Shown piece after piece: positions 9,341-17,798 of a DNA stretch of 51,384 nucleotides. Source of the DNA: a virus; the IMG/VR virus record IMGVR_UViG_3300036792_000159, positions 1 to 51,384 of that record, one strand, 5' to 3'. The notes beneath the pieces are model-generated. The model was not told where the DNA came from, ran no database searches, and worked only from the letters and a program-made list of their open reading frames with translations. The position numbers and the translations under genes are program-made. The first letter of the stretch is position 1. The number at the start of each line of letters is the position of its first letter.

Positions 9341-9603
9341 TGGAATCCCAGTCACAGATAGAAACCAGCTGCGCAGGCTCACGTTACTGGGCTCAGGCCC
9401 GACACCACGAAGTGGTGGAGCGTGAGAGACGTCGACGCTATCTCCAGTACGTGTCGATCCCTGGGGTGATAGTAGGTGTAGCAGGGATGGTCCGTTACGT
9501 GACGCTACCCTACCCCGCTGCCCACTGGTACATCGGCCTTGCGTCGGTCATCGTGGTGGCCTTCTTCCTGTGCTTGCCCTCGGGTATGGCACACCGTTCA
9601 TGA
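9340..9603 (+). CDS. Two-span membrane protein (87 aa)
   Basis: Two hydrophobic segments (YVSIPGVIVGVAGMV and WYIGLASVIVVAFFLCL) follow a basic N-terminal helix. The ATG overlaps the previous stop (TGATG); a GTG three bases earlier is the alternative. Function unknown. Confidence 0.7.
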   Translation: MESQSQIETSCAGSRYWAQARHHEVVERERRRRYLQYVSIPGVIVGVAGMVRYVTLPYPAAHWYIGLASVIVVAFFLCLPSGMAHRS

Positions 9604-9866
9604 TGGCTCTCTACCCGGTAGGAGAACGGGTCATGGCCGTGGAGGCTCCCAGCGAGAAGAAGCTGACCAGCGGGCTTATCCTGCCTGCCTCCTTGGAAGG
9701 GATCAAAGTAGCAATCATCGAAAAAGTAGGTATAGGTCTGGCGCTTGAGGCACTGGATCTCTCTGCGGGTGACGTCGTCTACTACATGGAGGCAAGCGAG
9801 CACAAGATCAAGGACAAATTGATCATCGAGGCTGCATACATCATCGCAATAGAGAGGCTTGACTAG
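9600..9866 (+). CDS. GroES-like co-chaperonin
   Basis: The 88-residue product matches the chaperonin-10 layout. It opens with YPVGERVMAVEAPSEKK, then a mobile-loop-like segment (TSGLILPAS, about residues 23-31), then a V..VG turn, LDLSAGDVVYYMEASEHKI and a final AAYIIAIERL. Phage GroES proteins such as T4 gp31 replace host GroES to fold a capsid protein; that role here is inference. It starts at an ATG overlapping the previous stop. No GroEL is encoded, so it would act with the host GroEL. Confidence 0.85.
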   Translation: MMALYPVGERVMAVEAPSEKKLTSGLILPASLEGIKVAIIEKVGIGLALEALDLSAGDVVYYMEASEHKIKDKLIIEAAYIIAIERLD

Positions 9867-10253
9867 ATGGATATTTATGTCGCGGGCAAGACGGACGATT
9901 GGGAACGCGTCCGTCGGGTCCAGGAATCATTGGTCGAGGTTGGTCACATGATTACCTACGACTGGACTGTCAACGTCGAAGATGACGTAGACATGGGGTT
10001 AGAGGCAGACGAGAGAACGCGCCGTGAATGGGCAGACGATGATCAGCTTGGGGTGAAAAGGGCAGATACCGTCATCTTCATGGTTGAATCAGAGGGTCTA
10101 TCAGGAACCCTGATCGAGCTGGGGATGGCTCTGGCCTACGAAAAGAACGTTATCGTCGTAGGGATACCAGAGCGTAACTCCGTCTTCTTCTCCCATGCTC
10201 TGATTACGGAAGTTCCCCACGAGGATGACATCCTCTCGGTTCTCCCCGAGTAG
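9867..10253 (+). CDS. Nucleoside 2-deoxyribosyltransferase-like protein
   Basis: A 128-residue Rossmann-like protein beginning MDIYVAGKTDDWERVRRVQ, with ADTVIFM and the signature GTLIELGMALAYEKNVIVVG (Glu84) of the deoxyribosyltransferase/DUF4406 superfamily. These enzymes cleave or transfer bases on deoxynucleosides or nucleotides. It lies directly upstream of the helicase and close to the nucleotide genes, so a role in reworking nucleotide pools is likely, but the substrate cannot be told. Confidence 0.8.
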   Translation: MDIYVAGKTDDWERVRRVQESLVEVGHMITYDWTVNVEDDVDMGLEADERTRREWADDDQLGVKRADTVIFMVESEGLSGTLIELGMALAYEKNVIVVGIPERNSVFFSHALITEVPHEDDILSVLPE

Positions 10254-11722
10254 TGGCAAAGTACAAATTTAAGACCAAGCCCTATACCCACCAGATAGAA
10301 GCCCTCAAAGTGCTCCTCCGCAACCGCGGGGGGGCGCTATTTATGGAGATGGGAACGGGTAAGAGCAAGGTCTGTATAGACTGGGTAGCCGCGGAAGCCG
10401 TACGCCTCGACGAGCGCGCTCCTGGCGTACGCTGCCTAATTACGTGCCCCCTGTCTGTAGTGGGGGTCTGGCCAAAAGAGATCGCTAAACATGATCCCTT
10501 TGCCGACAACGACTACATGGGCGCTGAATACCGGATAGTCAATTACGACAAAGTCTGGCGTCCACACGTCTACGACGAACTGGTTGAATGGCTCTGCGAG
10601 GTTCCACCCGAGAAACGTCTGATTATCGCAGACGAGAGCCACAAAATCAAAACCCACTCCAGTCGTAGATCCAAGGCCATGCACAGGCTGGGGCACTACA
10701 CCGAAAAGAAGGTCATCGCGTCGGGTACTCCAGTGACCAACAAGAACACGTTGGATCTGTTCTCGCAGTTCAAGTTCCTCCGTGAATCGATCTTCGGTAC
10801 CCACTTCGACCACTTCAAGCAAAAAGTCGCAGTCTTCAAGTGGAACAGCCCGGTCATACACAGGTTCAAGAACAAACGGTGGGTGCGTAAGAAGACGAAG
10901 CATCTTGTCTACCGCATCAAGAAGGACGAATGCCTCGACCTTCCTCCACGTACCCACGAGATCATCCCTGTGTTCCTGGAGCCACAGGCGCGCAGAGTGT
11001 ACGATCAGCTGGCCGAGCAGGCTATCACCGAATGGGCCGGGATGGAGGTAGAGGCGCCCCACGTTCTTACGCGCATGATGCGCCTGTCTCAGATAACCGG
11101 TGGGTGGCTGAAGGGAGACGAAGGGTACCGGAAGATCAGCAACGTCAAGATCGAGAAGCTCAAGGAGTTGCTCGACGACTTCCAAGACAATGAACGCCAA
11201 AAGCTTGTCATCTATGCCCGGTTCAAAAAAGAGTTGATAGACATCCGAAAGGCGGTGAAAGAGACAAACCACTACTACGTCTTGACCATCCGAGGCAAGA
11301 ACCGTAAGCGCCGAGAGCGCATCTACGAGGCGTTTGAGGCTATCGATCTACCTACTGTGCTGGTTGTGCAGCTTGCTACCGGCTCGGAAGGTCGTAACGA
11401 GCTCGTGGTAGCTCGGGAGGCAGTCTTTTTCTCCCACGATCAAAGCATGGTGCATTTCCACCAAGCACTAGATCGACTCCACAGGCCGGGCCAGTTACAT
11501 AAGGTCACGTATTACCATCTACTAGCAGATCTGACGCAGGATCCTCTAATCCTCCTAGGGTTACGCGAAAACTTCAGGGCAGCTGAGATGGCCTTAAAGT
11601 ACCCCAAGATGCTACATTCTTCAGCAGACACAGCACAAGTACAGGAGAGGCGACATGGCAAGAAAAAAAGGGAAAAAGCAGGGCGGCGGAAAGAAAAAGC
11701 CGAAGTTCGTAGGGGACGGTGA
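10253..11722 (+). CDS. SNF2/DEAD-like superfamily 2 helicase
   Basis: A 489-residue helicase. Walker A is MGTGKSK (about residues 33-39), motif II is DESHK (about 126-130) and motif III is ASGTPVTNK. The C-terminal half has YARFKKEL and motif VI QALDRLHRPGQ (about 405-415). This is the SNF2-type core found in many phages. It probably remodels protein-DNA or branched DNA during replication or recombination. The GTG start overlaps the previous TAG (TAGTG). The very basic tail overlaps the start of the next gene by 68 bases. Confidence 0.92.
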   Translation: MAKYKFKTKPYTHQIEALKVLLRNRGGALFMEMGTGKSKVCIDWVAAEAVRLDERAPGVRCLITCPLSVVGVWPKEIAKHDPFADNDYMGAEYRIVNYDKVWRPHVYDELVEWLCEVPPEKRLIIADESHKIKTHSSRRSKAMHRLGHYTEKKVIASGTPVTNKNTLDLFSQFKFLRESIFGTHFDHFKQKVAVFKWNSPVIHRFKNKRWVRKKTKHLVYRIKKDECLDLPPRTHEIIPVFLEPQARRVYDQLAEQAITEWAGMEVEAPHVLTRMMRLSQITGGWLKGDEGYRKISNVKIEKLKELLDDFQDNERQKLVIYARFKKELIDIRKAVKETNHYYVLTIRGKNRKRRERIYEAFEAIDLPTVLVVQLATGSEGRNELVVAREAVFFSHDQSMVHFHQALDRLHRPGQLHKVTYYHLLADLTQDPLILLGLRENFRAAEMALKYPKMLHSSADTAQVQERRHGKKKREKAGRRKEKAEVRRGR

Positions 11723-11873
11723 GGTTGCACAACTGCGACCACGCCGACGCATGCCGCATGTATCACAGGAGTACGCAGAGCTTGGCCACCCGGACGTCGC
11801 GTTCGAGCTGGTGAAGGGGCTGCGCCCAAGACATCGATTTGCAACCATAGGCACGGAGGTACGCCCAGCATGA
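11655..11873 (+). CDS. Small basic protein (72 aa)
   Basis: Begins inside the helicase gene in another frame, with AGGAGAGG before the ATG. The N-terminus is almost pure Lys/Gly/Arg (MARKKGKKQGGGKKKPKF), followed by a short globular part (HPDVAFELVKGLRPRHRFAT). The end overlaps the kinase start (ATGA). A nucleic-acid-binding role is likely. Family unknown. Confidence 0.7.
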   Translation: MARKKGKKQGGGKKKPKFVGDGEVAQLRPRRRMPHVSQEYAELGHPDVAFELVKGLRPRHRFATIGTEVRPA

Positions 11874-12421
11874 TTATCGTAGAGGGTCCCGATGGGGCCG
11901 GCAAGACCACGCTAGTAGACAGTCTCGTAGGGGACTTGATGCTTGACAAGGGGAAGCGAGCTACCAAGGATCGCAACAAGCTGTACGAGGTCACGCGCCA
12001 GGACACCTACACCGCGCTGGCCAAGGGGGTAAAAGGCCACAAGAAACCGCTGATCTGGGACCGTCTGTTCTTCAGCGAGATGGTCTACTCCCCGCTGGTA
12101 GGTAGAGCCTGCGAGTTCTCTGCGGAGGAGCAGGTCTTCGTCAAGAAAATTCTGTCAACCCTAGCGTGTCCGATCATCATGTGCCGTCCCACGTTGGACG
12201 TCGTCGAAAAGAACGTCCTAGAGGCCGACCAGATGGAGGGCGTGAAGGAAAACGTCCGAGGCATCTACAACGCCTACGGTAGTGTGGCAGAAGATATGCC
12301 GTGGCTTATCTGGTATGACTACACCGAAGAGCTGACCGGCAAGGGATCCTTCAAAACCTACGAGGAGATCGTCTTCGCAATCGAGCACTACATGACCCAT
12401 CGGTCAGTCAGGAGCTGGTAA
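11870..12421 (+). CDS. P-loop (deoxy)nucleoside monophosphate kinase-like protein
   Basis: A 183-residue kinase with IIVEGPDGAGKTTLVDSL (P-loop residues 6-13), a DR motif in LIWDRLFFSEMVYSP (about 62-76) and a CPIIMCRP strand, as in thymidylate-kinase-like enzymes. Similar actinophage kinases were predicted to act in base hypermodification. Here it is directly followed by MazG-like, two TS-fold and dCMP deaminase genes, so phosphorylation of a normal or modified dNMP is the expected role. T4 gp1 is the functional parallel. Confidence 0.85.
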   Translation: MIIVEGPDGAGKTTLVDSLVGDLMLDKGKRATKDRNKLYEVTRQDTYTALAKGVKGHKKPLIWDRLFFSEMVYSPLVGRACEFSAEEQVFVKKILSTLACPIIMCRPTLDVVEKNVLEADQMEGVKENVRGIYNAYGSVAEDMPWLIWYDYTEELTGKGSFKTYEEIVFAIEHYMTHRSVRSW

Positions 12422-12425
12422 CACT

Positions 12426-12950
12426 ATGGACTGGCCTACTTTGGTCGAAGAGCGGAATGAGTGGGTGAAGCACAACTTTCCGGTGCCCACCGTCCCCAAT
12501 CCTGGAGAGTCGATCCTCGGTGTCATGGAGGAGGTAGGGGAGCTATCCCACGCCTACCTCAAGTCCGCGCAGAACATCCGCGGTGACAAGGATAAACACG
12601 AAGCCGACGCCAAGGATGCGGTGGCAGATATCACCATCTACCTCCTCGGTGTGATGAATATCTACGGCACTCCTCCCCCCAAGCACTACCTCAGAATCGA
12701 CACGCGGGACACGTTCGAGGCCATGATGATCCTCGGTAGGGCCGTGGGAGAACTCTGCTCCTCCAGTGCAGCGATTCCTGACCTCTACGCAGTAGAGAAA
12801 GTCGTCTGTGCTTGTGAAGAGATCTGCAAGCACTCCGACTGGGACTACGAAGAACTCGTCATCAGAACGTGGGAAGAGGTCAAGAAGCGAGATTGGGCCG
12901 CCTACCCGGAGACCGGACTGCCACCGGAGACGAAGACGGTCAACCTCTAA
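12426..12950 (+). CDS. MazG-like all-alpha NTP pyrophosphohydrolase
   Basis: The motif GVMEEVGELSHAYLK (Glu35, 36, 39) followed by DAKDAVADITIYLLG (Asp64, Asp68) is the metal-binding EExxE...DxxxD core of the MazG/dUTPase-dCTPase superfamily. The chain is 174 residues, longer than a minimal MazG domain, with an extra helical half. It probably hydrolyses one dNTP to dNMP plus pyrophosphate. In this gene neighbourhood a dCTPase/dUTPase role like T4 gp56 is attractive but unproven. The next ATG overlaps its stop (TAATG). Confidence 0.85.
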   Translation: MDWPTLVEERNEWVKHNFPVPTVPNPGESILGVMEEVGELSHAYLKSAQNIRGDKDKHEADAKDAVADITIYLLGVMNIYGTPPPKHYLRIDTRDTFEAMMILGRAVGELCSSSAAIPDLYAVEKVVCACEEICKHSDWDYEELVIRTWEEVKKRDWAAYPETGLPPETKTVNL

Positions 12951-13759
12951 TGCCAGAGGCAAATCTCCAAGACCTCTGGCACGTTGCCTGTGAGGATATG
13001 CTGTACGCGGAGAGGGGTGACGCCCACATGAACGGCGTCACCTCTTTCCAGTTCGGCAAGCAATTCAAATCAGACTCGATGGATTTCGAGTTCGACCTCG
13101 GCAAGGAGCTATGGCTCACCAAGTCGCGCTTTACGTCTCTCAAGCGCGACTACATCGATCCCACTCGCCTGGCCTACTTCTTCAAGCAGGTGGAGGAACT
13201 TCCACACAGGAGGGTGGCTACTGCACAGATGATCTGTAGGATCAAGGGAGAGCGCAGCCACGGAGACAATTGGGTCAGCTACAAGTGGGGAAACTGCATC
13301 CTCGGGTTCTCGTTCCGTTCTGAACCAGAGCCCGAAATGTGCATGTACGCACGAACGACGCTTATCACTCGAATGGGGGGGATGGATCTTGCACTTGCCT
13401 ACGTCCTGGCGAAGTACGTTGCAGACATTCGCGAGGAAGACGTTACGGACTACAAATTCACATGGTACGTCGGCACCCTCTACCACTCGTCCCTCCATGC
13501 CATGCCCTACTTCTACTCGCATGGACATCACCTCAACATGTACGACTGGGACGCACATGACTACCCTGTGCTGGGAGCAATGCACAGGCAGCTGGAGTAC
13601 AACGATCGGCTAGACAAGGAACAACGTATCATCAAACATGGTACCAGGGAGCGACTACGCAAGCAGCGCCGCAAATTTCAGGCAGACGAAGATGCCCAGA
13701 TCGCGGTGCCCTGCCCTGTCGACTCCCTGGACCTCGAGAATCTGGAGGGCAAGCGATGA
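12950..13759 (+). CDS. Thymidylate-synthase-fold protein 1 (possible dCMP hydroxymethylase or methylase)
   Basis: A 269-residue divergent member of the thymidylate synthase superfamily. GNCILGFSFRSEPEPEM holds the expected nucleophile Cys116. MYARTTLITRMGGMDLALAY aligns with the TS phosphate-binding Arg region (Arg135), and Asp146 falls where TS has the uracil-recognising Asn. T4 dCMP hydroxymethylase has Asp at this site, so cytosine nucleotides may be the substrate (inference). The folate region is not clear to me. A Lys/Arg-rich tail follows residue 205. Start at 12950 by TAATG coupling; the next gene overlaps its end by four bases. Confidence 0.7.
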   Translation: MPEANLQDLWHVACEDMLYAERGDAHMNGVTSFQFGKQFKSDSMDFEFDLGKELWLTKSRFTSLKRDYIDPTRLAYFFKQVEELPHRRVATAQMICRIKGERSHGDNWVSYKWGNCILGFSFRSEPEPEMCMYARTTLITRMGGMDLALAYVLAKYVADIREEDVTDYKFTWYVGTLYHSSLHAMPYFYSHGHHLNMYDWDAHDYPVLGAMHRQLEYNDRLDKEQRIIKHGTRERLRKQRRKFQADEDAQIAVPCPVDSLDLENLEGKR

Positions 13760-14562
13760 TGAACTATGGAAATCACCCAATGCCAGGAATCCTGCGTTGG
13801 TTACGAGAGGATCTACTAGCCGCCCCGGAGGCAGACGTCAAAGAAGTCCACTCCCAAGACATCGCAGGAAAACCCGAGTACGTCACGAAGGAGCTGGAGA
13901 ATGTCACCTTCCAGACGTTGCTGCCCAGTGAAGCAGGAGATCTCGCAGCCATCACCGGGGCGAACTTGCCGTGGGCAGAGGATCACTTCTTGGAGCGCGT
14001 CAGTGGCAAACCTTGGAACCCCCCGCCCTCGGCGTCCTGGTGGCCCTACGCACAGAAGGGACACGAAAACCACGTAGACGAGAACGAACAGTTCTCTCAC
14101 ACCTACCCCGAGAGGTTCTGGCCCAAACACGCTGACCTTCCCCGGGGGAGAGAACACCACGGAATCCGTTATCGGTACGGGGACCTGGCAGACGTGGTTT
14201 CCCAGCTGCACAGGAACCCTGCAACGCGCCAGGCATACCTGCCCGTCTGGTTCCCAGAGGACACCGGGGCGCTCCAGGGACAACGCGTACCCTGCACCCT
14301 CGGGTACCACTTTCTCATCCGAGGCAACAGGCTCAACGTCACCTACTTCATCCGGTCGTGCGATTTCATGCGTCACTTCCGTGATGACGTCTATATGGCA
14401 GGGCGTCTCGCGCAGTGGGTATGCAACGAGCTCGTCCAGCGTGAGGGACCCGATGACCTCCCTGTACCACAGGGGTTGGTTGTAGGCCATCTGATCATGC
14501 ACATCGTCTCCATGCATATCTTCAAGGGCGATGTCCCGCTACTCGAAAGGCAGCACTCATGA
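13756..14562 (+). CDS. Thymidylate-synthase-fold protein 2 (possible dCMP hydroxymethylase or methylase)
   Basis: A 268-residue protein closer to classical TS than its neighbour. YRYGDLADVVSQLHRNPATR precedes VPCTLGYHFLI with nucleophile Cys180. Then comes YFIRSCDFMRHFRDD, with Arg200 exactly 20 residues after the Cys as in E. coli TS (Cys146/Arg166). The position of TS Asn177 is Asp211, as in T4 dCMP hydroxymethylase. MHIF (His254, Phe256) stands where TS has the ribose-contacting HxY. Activity on dCMP (hydroxymethylation or methylation) is inferred. The neighbouring kinase, pyrophosphatase and deaminase fit such a pathway. Confidence 0.8.
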   Translation: MMNYGNHPMPGILRWLREDLLAAPEADVKEVHSQDIAGKPEYVTKELENVTFQTLLPSEAGDLAAITGANLPWAEDHFLERVSGKPWNPPPSASWWPYAQKGHENHVDENEQFSHTYPERFWPKHADLPRGREHHGIRYRYGDLADVVSQLHRNPATRQAYLPVWFPEDTGALQGQRVPCTLGYHFLIRGNRLNVTYFIRSCDFMRHFRDDVYMAGRLAQWVCNELVQREGPDDLPVPQGLVVGHLIMHIVSMHIFKGDVPLLERQHS

Positions 14563-14996
14563 GACCTACCCGCGGAGAAATATTCATGCGCGCTGCGCAT
14601 CTGTTCGCAGAACGCTCTACCTGCGAACGTGCGCACGTAGGAGCAGTCCTCGTGGCAAACAAACGCATCATCGCGCACGGCTACAACGGGGCGCCTCCCG
14701 GTATGCCCCACTGTACCGACGTAGGCTGCGAGGTACTGGACCAGGGCTGCCAGCGCACGGTACACGCAGAGGCAAACGTCATAGCCTACGCGGCCAGGGC
14801 AGGCATCCCTACCGAGGGGTCGTTCATGTTCTGCACCCACTCCCCATGTCGCAAATGCATGGAGCTGGCCTCCTGTGCTGGGGTCGTGGAAATAATCTAC
14901 GACAAGAAATACCGGGCTACCCCATTCGAGCTCGCACCGGCAATGGGAATCATCCTCGTAGGGGCGGAGGGCGTCGATGCCAGAGATGAATTCTAA
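14559..14996 (+). CDS. dCMP deaminase
   Basis: A 145-residue zinc-dependent deaminase with RAHVGAVLV, GYNGAPPGMPHC, the catalytic HAE (His69, Glu71) and PCRKC (Cys97, Cys100). This layout is typical of deoxycytidylate deaminases, which make dUMP from dCMP for thymidine nucleotide synthesis. It is coupled to the TS-like gene by ATGA and overlaps the next gene by 20 bases. Confidence 0.93.
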   Translation: MRPTRGEIFMRAAHLFAERSTCERAHVGAVLVANKRIIAHGYNGAPPGMPHCTDVGCEVLDQGCQRTVHAEANVIAYAARAGIPTEGSFMFCTHSPCRKCMELASCAGVVEIIYDKKYRATPFELAPAMGIILVGAEGVDARDEF

Positions 14997-15423
14997 CGCC
15001 GAGGATTCGATGGAGGGCTACGTCGGCCCTGGACGGAAACAGATGCCTACCGACAGAGAGGGGCTCACTCACCGGGTAACCATCGGGGGGATGCAGGGTT
15101 ACATCACGGCAAACCCGCAGGAAGACGGGACGCTCGGGGAGATCTTCATCCACGGGTTCGGCCAGCTCGGTAGCACCAATGCAGGGTGGACCAACGCGTT
15201 TGCGATCATGGTGTCGATCGGCTTGCAGTACGGAGTAGAACTACCGATGCTGGCCCGCAAGTTTGCCCACATGAAATTCGATCCGATGGGTGAAACCGAC
15301 AACCCCGATATCCCACACTGTCAGTCGATACCCGACTACATCTTCAAGTGGATCGCTCTGCACTACGGGGATGAGAAACTCCAGGAAGAACTCCGCAAGA
15401 TCGACGAGGAGTTGGGTAGGTGA
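14977..15423 (+). CDS. Free-standing class II ribonucleotide reductase C-terminal (TSCPD-like) domain
   Basis: The 148-residue protein matches the end of B12-dependent ribonucleotide reductase (NrdJ). GYITANPQEDGTLGEIFIHG is followed by an S/T-rich turn, then FAIMVSIGLQYGVELPMLAR, KFAHMKFDPMGETDNPDIP and SIPDYIFKWIAL. No catalytic ten-stranded barrel is present here or elsewhere in the genome. It may regulate host reductase or bind nucleotides on its own (inference). The ATG sits inside the dCMP deaminase gene with GGAGGG upstream, and the stop overlaps the polymerase GTG. Confidence 0.85.
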   Translation: MPEMNSNAEDSMEGYVGPGRKQMPTDREGLTHRVTIGGMQGYITANPQEDGTLGEIFIHGFGQLGSTNAGWTNAFAIMVSIGLQYGVELPMLARKFAHMKFDPMGETDNPDIPHCQSIPDYIFKWIALHYGDEKLQEELRKIDEELGR

Positions 15424-17798
15424 GCTTCCAGGACAAGATCAGGAACCCGAGGTGTGAGCTATGCCCGATGTACGAGGAGGCTGGGCACGTCTGCCTGATG
15501 GGGGAGGGGACGCGCAAGGCGGAAATAGTAATCGTCGGGGAGGCGCCAGGAGCACAGGAGGATGAAGAAGGGCGTCCGTTCGTCGGATCCTCGGGGCAAC
15601 TGCTCACCAAGATGTTGAAAGAACACGCAGGCATCGACCGCAAAGACTGCTATATCACAAACGTTGTCAAGTGTCGGCCACCTGACAACGCTACTCCCGG
15701 CAAAAAGGACATCAAGGTTTGTGTGGAAGAGTACCTCGTAAAGGAGCTGGAAAGTGTCAAGCCAAAGTGGGTCCTCACGCTCGGGAACTCAGCTCTACAG
15801 GGAGTTCTTGGAAAATCAGGCATTACTAAGTACCGGGGGAGTCGGGTTAGAGTGGGAGACTTCACTGTTTTCCCCTCGTTCCACCCGGCGGCGGTTCTTA
15901 GGAATCCGCGTTACGAGCACGAGCTTATTGCTGACTTGCGGAAGTTCGGAGAAATGGTTCGGGGTGAAGATAACTCTCCGACTACGAAGATTAAGATCAT
16001 CCGCACTAGATCTCAGCTCAAGTGGTTGGGAAAAACTCTCAGCGCAGCCCCCGGATTCACGTACGACATAGAGACAAATTTCCTTCCTTACTTCGACCCT
16101 GACTTTCGGATAGTCTCTATCGCATTCTCTCTCAAAGCAGGGGAGGCTATCGTCGTCCCTGTCTTCCACGATGAATCTCCGTGGAAGGACCCAGCACAGG
16201 TAGTCAACTGGCTAGGGAAGTATATGAAGATGCCCAAGGCAAAGCACGTCGCACACAACGGCAAGTTCGACGCACAAGGCCTCAAGAATTATGGTGTGGA
16301 GACTACGCAGACGTTCGACACCATGCTCGCTGCGCATATGCTCGACGAGAACAGGTCGAAGGGATTGAAGAATCTCTCACAGATCTACTTGCAGGCGGAC
16401 GCGTATGGTCTAGGGGACGAGCTCAAAGACGCACACGAAATTCCGCTCAAGAAACTGGCTCTCTACAACGGACGTGATACCGACTACACGCTCCGGCTCT
16501 ACGAGAAAATGAAGAAAGAACTCACCGAAGAGCCGAGGGTTGCTCGGGTATTTTCACGTCTGATGATGCCAGCATCCAACCACATCGTCAACGTAGAGAG
16601 ACGCGGTGTGCAGATCGACAAAAATCGTTGGGTAGAGCGCAGCCAGATAGTCGTAAATAATGTGAAGAAGATCGAAGCGGCCATGATGCCCTACGTTCCC
16701 AAGCACATGCGCGCTGACATGAACTTCAACTCCCACCCTAAAGTGGCCAAGTGGCTCTTCGAGGAATGTGGGTACGAGGTACTCGAAGAGACCGAGAAAG
16801 GCGCTCCGTCGTCGAAAGAGTCCGTCCTACTACAGATGCAGGACTACAGCCGAGAGGCAGCGATACTTCTCAAACATCGTAAATGGTACAAGTACATGAG
16901 CACGTACTTCAAGCCGTGGATAGAGCGCTCCGACAGCAACCTCAAGATCCATCCCCAATACAAACTGTATGGCACTGTTACTGGGCGCCTCTCCTGTGTT
17001 GAACCCAACTTGCAACAGGTACCTAGAGAGCCCTTCGTCCGTAGCGTCCTCGGCGCCTCCCCAGGCCATGTGTGGGTAGAGGCAGACTACTCACAGGCAG
17101 AGCTCAGGATCGCGGCAATGCTGGCAAACGAGAAGCGCATGCTACGGATGTTCCAAGCCGGCGAAGACATCCATCTCAACACTGCGGCAGAAGTAACCGG
17201 CAAATCGAAAGGCTCGATCGAGAAGGAGGAGCGGAAGAAAGCCAAGGCGGTGAACTTCGGGTTCCTTTACGGCATGATGCCTAAAAAATTCGTCACGTAT
17301 GCGCGTGACAACTACGGAGTAGTGGTAACTCTTGCAGAGGCTACGAGGGTCCGTGAAAGGTTCTTTGCTGCCTACCCTGCCTTGCACCCCTGGCACGAGC
17401 GCCAGAAGCGTCTAGCGCACCGCTACAAGCGCGTAAGCAGCCCCATAGGCAGGGTAAGGCACCTGCCCGATATCGATAGCCACGTAGATGGCATTCGGAT
17501 GGACGCAGAGCGCCAGGCGATCAACAGTCCTGTACAATCCCTGGCATCGGACTTCACGCTCCTGGCGATGATCCTGCTGGAGGAACAAGGCATCCCTGTG
17601 GTGGGTCTTATCCACGATGCTCTGGCCTTCGATATCCCAGAAGACAAACTTGAGTGGGCACTGCCTATCATCAAACACACGATGGAAAACCTGCCGCTCA
17701 AGACGCTGTTCTACTTTGAAGTAACGGTACCTATCGTGGTAGATGTAAAGATCGGCTCTCATTGGAGCGACCCAGAGTCTAAGGAGTGGAGCGGATGA
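15420..17798 (+). CDS. Uracil-DNA glycosylase / 3'-5' exonuclease / family A DNA polymerase fusion
   Basis: The 792-residue protein has three parts. Residues 1-180 are a family 4 uracil-DNA glycosylase with Fe-S ligands Cys12, 15, 85 and 101, GEAPGAQEDEEGRPFVGSSG and FHPAAV. Residues about 190-375 are a DEDD exonuclease (YDIET, VAHNGKFD, NGRDTDYTLRLY). The rest is a PolA polymerase with motif A VEADYSQAELR (about 555), motif B AVNFGFLYG (about 609) and motif C LIHDALAFD (about 730), where Ala replaces the usual Glu after the catalytic Asp. It is the replicative polymerase. SPO1 polymerase also carries a UDG-like domain. The GTG start overlaps the previous stop. Confidence 0.95.
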   Translation: MSFQDKIRNPRCELCPMYEEAGHVCLMGEGTRKAEIVIVGEAPGAQEDEEGRPFVGSSGQLLTKMLKEHAGIDRKDCYITNVVKCRPPDNATPGKKDIKVCVEEYLVKELESVKPKWVLTLGNSALQGVLGKSGITKYRGSRVRVGDFTVFPSFHPAAVLRNPRYEHELIADLRKFGEMVRGEDNSPTTKIKIIRTRSQLKWLGKTLSAAPGFTYDIETNFLPYFDPDFRIVSIAFSLKAGEAIVVPVFHDESPWKDPAQVVNWLGKYMKMPKAKHVAHNGKFDAQGLKNYGVETTQTFDTMLAAHMLDENRSKGLKNLSQIYLQADAYGLGDELKDAHEIPLKKLALYNGRDTDYTLRLYEKMKKELTEEPRVARVFSRLMMPASNHIVNVERRGVQIDKNRWVERSQIVVNNVKKIEAAMMPYVPKHMRADMNFNSHPKVAKWLFEECGYEVLEETEKGAPSSKESVLLQMQDYSREAAILLKHRKWYKYMSTYFKPWIERSDSNLKIHPQYKLYGTVTGRLSCVEPNLQQVPREPFVRSVLGASPGHVWVEADYSQAELRIAAMLANEKRMLRMFQAGEDIHLNTAAEVTGKSKGSIEKEERKKAKAVNFGFLYGMMPKKFVTYARDNYGVVVTLAEATRVRERFFAAYPALHPWHERQKRLAHRYKRVSSPIGRVRHLPDIDSHVDGIRMDAERQAINSPVQSLASDFTLLAMILLEEQGIPVVGLIHDALAFDIPEDKLEWALPIIKHTMENLPLKTLFYFEVTVPIVVDVKIGSHWSDPESKEWSG

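Follow-up and report, generated by a model that had tools for sequence, protein, structure and literature searches.

A phage gene cassette with a linked pair of diverged thymidylate synthase-fold proteins and a proposed route to modified cytosine

Thymidylate synthase (TS), the T4 dCMP hydroxymethylase and MilA all act as homodimers, and TS-fold enzymes that carry Asp at position 177 are known with several chemistries: T4 gp42 hydroxymethylates, engineered TS methylates and AfhB is described as hydroxylating with flavin. In T4, the single dCMP hydroxymethylase is accompanied by functions for a kinase, a pyrophosphatase and a dCMP deaminase, and the phage also has glucosyltransferases. Asp177 TS homologues have already been published as a mark of modified-cytosine phages (MetaGPA, 2021; PMC8670742). 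In that study, a change from Asn to Asp at position 177 shifts the substrate of TS from dUMP to dCMP, and the TS genes of modified-cytosine contigs are distinguished at two positions, by Asp at 177 and an altered residue at 147; on such contigs PF00303, dCMP deaminase and pyrophosphohydrolase are associated (PMC8670742).

Here we describe a cassette that shares these features but encodes two TS-fold proteins. It lies in a 51,384-nucleotide stretch of viral DNA, hereafter the window (IMG/VR record IMGVR_UViG_3300036792_000159, positions 1 to 51,384). A check of open reading frames and annotations bore out the coupled order of five + strand genes at 11870-14996 given in a preliminary description: kinase, MazG-like, TS1, TS2 and dCMP deaminase. 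The first (11870..12421, +) encodes a thymidylate-kinase-like P-loop (d)NMP kinase (phrog_761 thymidylate kinase, E 2e-11; TIGR00041, E 1e-6, far under the family cut-off), occupies the same position in relatives' cassettes and, by analogy with T4 gp1, probably phosphorylates modified dCMP. The second (12426..12950, +) encodes a MazG-like, all-alpha NTP pyrophosphatase (phrog_715 MazG-like, E 2e-5) for which a Pfam search gave no match of note; its counterparts in relatives are annotated as MazG or dUTPase, and it probably removes dCTP (or dUTP), the role of gp56 in T4. The genes for TS1 (12950..13759, +) and TS2 (13756..14562, +) overlap by ATGA and are followed by the dCMP deaminase gene (14559..14996, +; PF00383, E 1e-20; phrog_174, E 4e-44). 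Also within the cassette is a gene for a TSCPD-domain protein (14977..15423, +; PF12637, E 8e-12) resembling the C-terminal part of B12-dependent ribonucleotide reductase (PRK06556 region 735-862, E 2e-37). Beyond it lies a gene for a family-A DNA polymerase (PolA) that carries a family-4 uracil-DNA glycosylase domain at its N terminus (15420..17798, +; PF00476, E 3e-81; PF03167, E 8e-35). The cassette thus has the same set of functions that surrounds gp42, and its parts parallel T4 gp1, gp56, gp42 and cd, as the earlier label of a 'T4-like' toolkit implied. Kinship with T4 is unsupported, because the phage is of the PolA type and gp42 stands no nearer to TS2 than MilA or TS does.

TS2 is recognisably a member of the TS family, scoring 29.4 bits against PF00303 (cut-off 24.3) and also matching phrog_160; its best single-sequence PDB match is the N229D dCMP mutant of L. 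casei TS. The nucleophilic Cys (C180), the phosphate-binding Arg (R200) and the equivalent of Tyr94 (Y117) are all present, and D211, T181, R158 and S201 correspond to Asp177, Thr147, Arg126 and Ser167. The spacings first counted by hand, 20 residues from C180 to R200 and 11 from R200 to D211, proved exact. Every one of the 131 TS2-family members with a residue at 177 has Asp; just two sequences in the TS2 set depart from this, the canonical and ViI-type outgroup TS sequences. Residue 147 is Thr or Ser across the family and Thr in T4 gp42 and AfhB. Aligned with these two enzymes, TS2 ends about 12 residues past its His254-Ile-Phe256 motif and is missing the C-terminal tail that TS must have to close its site for methylation, a tail likewise absent from T4 dCMP hydroxymethylase (PMC6400193). 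Ser167 and Arg126 equivalents typify dCMP rather than CMP enzymes (PMC5175136).

Most public records annotate TS2 as thymidylate synthase, an assignment to dUMP-type ThyA that we rejected given Asp rather than Asn at 177 and Thr rather than His at 147. Searched against the PDB, the TS2 profile matched MilA (E 8e-8), AfhB (7e-7), TS (1e-6) and T4 gp42 (3e-5). As the first three score as well as or better than gp42, we do not file TS2 as its orthologue: the two share the TS fold, Cys-Thr, Asp177, Tyr94, Arg126 and the absence of the tail, but their similarity is at superfamily level only. MilA, the best profile match, is a CMP 5-hydroxymethylase acting on ribo-CMP, whereas TS2 carries the Ser/Arg pair of deoxy-specific enzymes. 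These sequence features make TS2 a probable dCMP 5-hydroxymethylase.

TS1, assigned to phrog_13667 (unknown function), gave no match in searches of Pfam and PDB sequences; neither PF00303 nor a TS profile matched it significantly. Its TS fold, previously judged by eye, is supported by an AlphaFold model (pLDDT 88, pTM 0.88) built from an alignment (A3) without GenBank phage sequences. Foldseek returned 91 PDB matches to this model at E < 0.001, and the best 50 of the 91 are TS-family structures (TM 0.3-0.5) except 4f2v, titled a designed hydrolase; MilA is among the best TM-scores (0.49), and both proteins have an extra helical C-terminal part. Y68 (placed by spacing), C116, R135 and D146 are the equivalents of Tyr94, Cys146, Arg166 and the Asn177-to-Asp position of TS. 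D146 lies 11 residues after R135, exactly as the preliminary description had it, which supports its claim of a cytosine-selecting Asp in both proteins; the interval from C116 to R135 is 19 residues in this protein, against 20 in some relatives. Across 52 family sequences, down to 12% identity, only five columns are invariant (Y68, G114, C116, R135 and D146), and the chance that two preset columns of 269 both fall among these five is 10/36046, or ~3e-4. Y68, C116, R135 and D146 are all kept in 115 of 115 gap-free distinct relatives. Because they are retained without exception, we ruled out a dead or decayed copy; with the TS-like model, they make TS1 a probable catalytic enzyme of the TS fold.

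Actinophages, Muddy among them, share the order kinase-TS1-TS2-dCMP deaminase-PolA with Brevundimonas, Pseudomonas and Yersinia phages, and it is unbroken in 144 of 144 pairs. Isolates with the pair include Muddy (host M. smegmatis; TS1 is gene 47 and TS2 gene 46), Cozz (G. terrae), Zuko (Streptomyces) and PMBT14 (P. fluorescens). Although the pair had at first looked new, its recurrences comprise at least 117 distinct TS1 sequences, and two public records label TS1 'pyrimidine hmase synthase'. When TS1 alone was the query, TS2 lay directly downstream in 77 of 80 loci and the remaining three ran off the contig, giving linkage in 77 of 77 testable loci. A TS2 profile search additionally found seven MAG contigs, five with TS1 alongside, which are likely phage contigs binned with their hosts. 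In a large-phage group TS2 occurs without TS1, which was not found elsewhere in 16 such records of up to 434 kb, several of them fragments; the TS1 model used for this search did detect 7 of 7 positives, among which Muddy and Yersinia P744 had not contributed to the model. A search for TS1-TS2 fusion ORFs found none, and the literature searched gave no nucleoside data for any relative. What is new is the linked second TS-fold partner, essentially unrecognised before: T4 has no known TS1, the AfhB gene in a Mosigvirus phage has no annotated TS neighbour, and the sections of the MetaGPA study drawn on here mention no second, Pfam-invisible TS-fold protein (PMC8670742).

From homology, fold, conserved residues and gene linkage, we infer the substrate, product and step order of a proposed pathway in which dCMP is substituted at C5 ahead of replication; its product would most likely be 5-hydroxymethyl-dCMP, with a probability of about 0.6. 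The MazG-like enzyme would take dCTP down to dCMP; the TS1/TS2 pair would place the one-carbon group of methylene-tetrahydrofolate on C5 of dCMP, with water completing the reaction; the kinase would lift the modified dCMP towards the triphosphate; and PolA would incorporate the modified nucleotide into DNA. TS2 would be the main dCMP enzyme and TS1 its diverged, probably catalytic partner, either pairing with TS2 as a mixed dimer or acting on the same nucleotide in a second step. Asp177 throughout the TS2 family, Thr/Ser147, the missing tail and the Ser167/Arg126 type all favour this pathway, as do the Asp of every TS1 sequence, the matching gene association on modified contigs, a separate dTMP-making enzyme in several relatives, and the TS1-TS2 linkage and gene order. 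Against it, a scan of window ORFs recognised no glucosyl-, arabinosyl- or carbamoyl-transferase, so any hydroxymethylcytosine would stay bare, unlike in T4, and TS2 scores no better with gp42 than with MilA, AfhB or TS. Together, TS1 and TS2 probably allow the phage to make modified cytosine as protection for its DNA. It is quite conceivable, if short of an even chance, that the two TS-fold proteins, neither recognisable from the other and both having a complete Tyr-Cys-Arg-Asp site, form an obligately joint two-component enzyme (mixed dimer or relay) making a modified dCMP, possibly undescribed, across a large phage group to which Muddy belongs.

One form of such a partnership, an obligate TS1:TS2 heterodimer with composite sites in which Arg158 of TS2 serves the TS1 site, is compatible with the 5-hydroxymethyl-dCMP pathway rather than an exclusive alternative to it, and we regard it as possible but doubtful. 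TS enzymes are dimers whose active sites draw on both subunits (PMC5175136), TS1 was met only together with TS2 in the loci examined, and the two genes overlap or adjoin; the large-phage records with TS2 alone argue the other way. A linked-chain AlphaFold model of the pair from a relative (L011), in which Gly stood in for the intervening stop codons solely for modelling, gave good domains but, at a pTM of 0.54, did not fix their mutual placement. TS1-TS2 distances correlate (r 0.52), but given PolA, which TS1 distances follow (correlation 0.88), the partial correlation is -0.13 and no co-evolution beyond PolA is seen, all on raw identities that may be saturated. The earlier suggestion of a two-subunit enzyme thus gains no backing from either result. 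BLASTP between the two proteins gave no match, and a profile-profile alignment (hhalign) sets the landmark C, R and D of one against those of the other at E 0.19, not significant alone; with no significant sequence homology, their kinship rests on fold and invariant residues.

The product itself is not fixed by Asp177 and Cys-Thr, because AfhB (phage HY126; PDB 9iqu, 9iqc) has both, together with a TS fold and a short C-terminus, and is described in its PDB titles as an FAD-dependent dCMP hydroxylase/monooxygenase. AfhB aligns with TS2 at the landmark residues, and both TS1 and TS2 have it among their nearest structures (TMt 0.71 with the TS2-containing model), so TS2, with TS1, might make 5-hydroxy-dCMP instead; we consider this unlikely, as no flavin reductase was recognised nearby in the window, the TS2-AfhB sequence relation is not close, and the hydroxylase role is known from PDB titles alone, our literature search having found no paper. 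Still less probable is synthesis of 5-methyl-dCMP by the pair, as in phage XP12: TS with the Asn-to-Asp change does become a dCMP methylase (PMC8670742), but TS2 is without the tail needed for sealing and methylation, and the window has no recognised DHFR for dihydrofolate recycling, unlike RcRudolph, the type of Asp177 methylase used for comparison, whose tail-bearing enzyme adjoins a DHFR gene. We give similarly little credence to ordinary dTMP supply, with TS2 a divergent thymidylate synthase, TS1 a decayed copy and the DNA unmodified. PF00303 membership, the prevailing annotation and an adjacent dCMP deaminase that provides dUMP would suit it; Asp177 in all TS2 members, the invariant TS1 residues and a separate dTMP-making enzyme in several relatives (ThyX in L005; canonical TS in Huwbert and large-phage records) speak against it.

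Two diverged TS-fold proteins conserved as a pair, with one classed as 'unknown function', would be a new arrangement. On this reading, modified cytosine is predicted for many isolated actinophages in which we found no base modification reported, the therapeutic phage Muddy among them, and existing isolates allow a quick test of the prediction. Modified cytosine in these actinophages would bear on their restriction, CRISPR editing and sequencing.

In the window (51,384 bases, a whole IMG/VR virus record), genes for structural proteins (terminase, portal and head proteins) fill one half, on the minus strand, and replication genes the other, on the plus strand, where the cassette genes are coupled. 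The gene order given in the preliminary description is present there: a P-loop kinase (11870-12421), a MazG-like protein (12426-12950), TS1 (12950-13759), TS2 (13756-14562) and dCMP deaminase (14559-14996). An SNF2-type helicase (10253-11722) precedes them, with a GroES-like co-chaperonin (9570-9866) and a nucleoside 2-deoxyribosyltransferase-like protein (9867-10253) just upstream. Beyond the deaminase, also on the plus strand, lie a stand-alone TSCPD domain (14977-15423), similar to the C-terminal region of B12-dependent ribonucleotide reductase, and a family-A DNA polymerase, PolA (15420-17798), whose N-terminal domain is a family-4 uracil-DNA glycosylase; PolA of several relatives (for example, loci L043 and L060) has a similar N terminus. 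Observed/expected dinucleotide ratios across the window are 0.65 for TA, 1.29 for GA and 1.00 for CG, which is not depleted.

On its predicted structure, TS1 is a protein of the thymidylate synthase (TS) fold. Its sequence has no match in Pfam, NCBIfam or PDB, and PHROGs lists its family, phrog_13667, under 'unknown function'. The AlphaFold model (pLDDT 88, pTM 0.88; input of 57 window and IMG/VR sequences) matched TS, DHFR-TS, T4 dCMP hydroxymethylase (gp42), the CMP 5-hydroxymethylase MilA or phage HY126 AfhB among the best 50 PDB chains in Foldseek, with a single exception titled as a designed hydrolase; E-values start at 2e-5 with probability 1.00, but TM is just 0.3-0.5. Model and matches back the fold earlier assigned by eye, and the 11-residue step from R135 to D146 holds. 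C116 sits directly ahead of one strand; R135 is part of the strand that follows, and D146 of the helix after that, a strand-strand-helix order repeated in the TS2 half of a model joining TS1 and TS2 of a relative (L011) in one chain. Among 269 residues, Y68, G114, C116, R135 and D146 alone are invariant (52 sequences, identity down to 12%). As Y68, C116, R135 and D146 are kept in all 115 gap-free sequences (117 distinct sequences surveyed), TS1 is not a decayed copy. Y68 is probably the counterpart of TS Tyr94, judging by its spacing to the Cys (48 residues, against 52 in TS and 45 from the equivalent Tyr in AfhB).

Pfam recognizes TS2 as a TS (29.4 bits against a cut-off of 24.3), and its top single PDB match is the Lactobacillus casei TS N229D mutant crystallized with dCMP. 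Its landmark residues are Y117, R158, C180, Thr/Ser181, R200, D203, D211 and H254, with the spacings already counted by hand (20 residues from C180 to R200, 11 from R200 to D211). T4 gp42 and AfhB carry Cys-Thr and Asp at the same positions, whereas canonical TS has Cys-His and Asn, and a Kuttervirus (ViI-type) TS has Cys-Asn and lacks this Asp. For the Ser/Arg pair that distinguishes dCMP from CMP enzymes (PMC5175136), TS2 has the dCMP version; in TS1 the Ser is mostly replaced by Thr or Ala. The TS2 C terminus lies about 12 residues beyond the His254-Ile-Phe256 motif; in E. coli TS a C-terminal tail closes off the site so that methylation can proceed, a tail that T4 dCMP hydroxymethylase does not have (PMC6400193). 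In these features TS2 resembles the dCMP hydroxymethylases.

The TS1-TS2 pair is ancient and widely distributed. With small variations, the same cassette occurs in Streptomyces Zuko, Microbacterium Huwbert, Mycobacterium Muddy, Gordonia Cozz, Brevundimonas Polewnik, Yersinia P744, Pseudomonas PMBT14 and a freshwater genome. The order kinase-TS1-TS2-deaminase-PolA is unbroken in 144 TS1-TS2 loci, individual genes being sometimes missing or undetected. A TS1-only search of IMG/VR gave 80 loci; TS2 lies directly downstream on the same strand in 77, and the other three stop at a contig edge. Among the 80 loci from a TS2 search, those lacking TS1 fall into two sets: some are truncated by the start of their contig, and the rest come from a group (L057-L083) that includes contigs of 118-434 kb and encodes a TS2-type Asp177 protein. 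The TS1 model, which matches 7/7 positive records, matched none of 16 records from this group; 11 of these 16 carry a separate TS above the Pfam cut-off. TS1 therefore seems to depend on TS2, but TS2 can occur alone. In one phage two TS1 genes stand in tandem ahead of TS2 (L052:4086-5974), and in Huwbert (L002) a canonical TS lies close to TS1 and TS2. A frameshift in the contig, possibly an assembly error, splits TS1 of the closest relative (L008:97-926; 95% identical over the best segment).

An earlier study (PMC8670742) identified Asp177 (E. coli numbering) as the determinant of dCMP use and, with a changed residue 147, as a mark of TS genes of modified-cytosine phages, which co-occur with dCMP deaminase and pyrophosphohydrolase domains. 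Given this determinant and association, the best reading is that TS2 together with TS1 would modify C5 of dCMP ahead of replication. Hydroxymethylation is favoured, because TS2 is without the tail and no DHFR was recognized in the window; both points make methylation by the pair to 5-methyl-dCMP quite improbable. Flavin-dependent hydroxylation by TS2, with TS1, to 5-hydroxy-dCMP is unlikely, but is retained as a rival because AfhB, titled a flavin-dependent dCMP hydroxylase (PDB 9iqu/9iqc), has the same landmark residues. How TS1 would contribute to C5 modification can be read in two ways. A TS1:TS2 mixed dimer, suggested by TS architecture, is plausible; the single structural test, the linked model, gave a pTM of 0.54, which favours neither outcome, and distances between TS1 sequences track those between TS2 sequences no further than PolA accounts for. 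A second step by TS1 on the same nucleotide fits the gene linkage equally well.

A separate phage TS group, in Rhodobacter RcRudolph (L091:5650-6540), Xanthomonas DoCa6 (L092:5590-6540) and Achromobacter LB7 (L093:5674-6540), has Cys-Pro together with Asp177, and its C-terminal tail is long, as in TS; in RcRudolph a DHFR gene is present as well. Members of this group are candidate dCMP methylases making 5mC. The RcRudolph protein and that at L004:6037-6915 are publicly annotated as ThyX, yet their sequences are ThyA-type (TS fold), with Cys and Asp177.

That TS enzymes with Asp177 are linked to modified cytosine is already known, and two GenBank records label TS1 'pyrimidine hmase synthase', so its nature had already been sensed by someone; the other annotated phage records examined call it 'hypothetical protein'. 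What is new is the evidence on TS1 from its fold and residues, together with its near-obligate linkage to TS2, from which follows a new prediction of modified cytosine in named phages such as Muddy.
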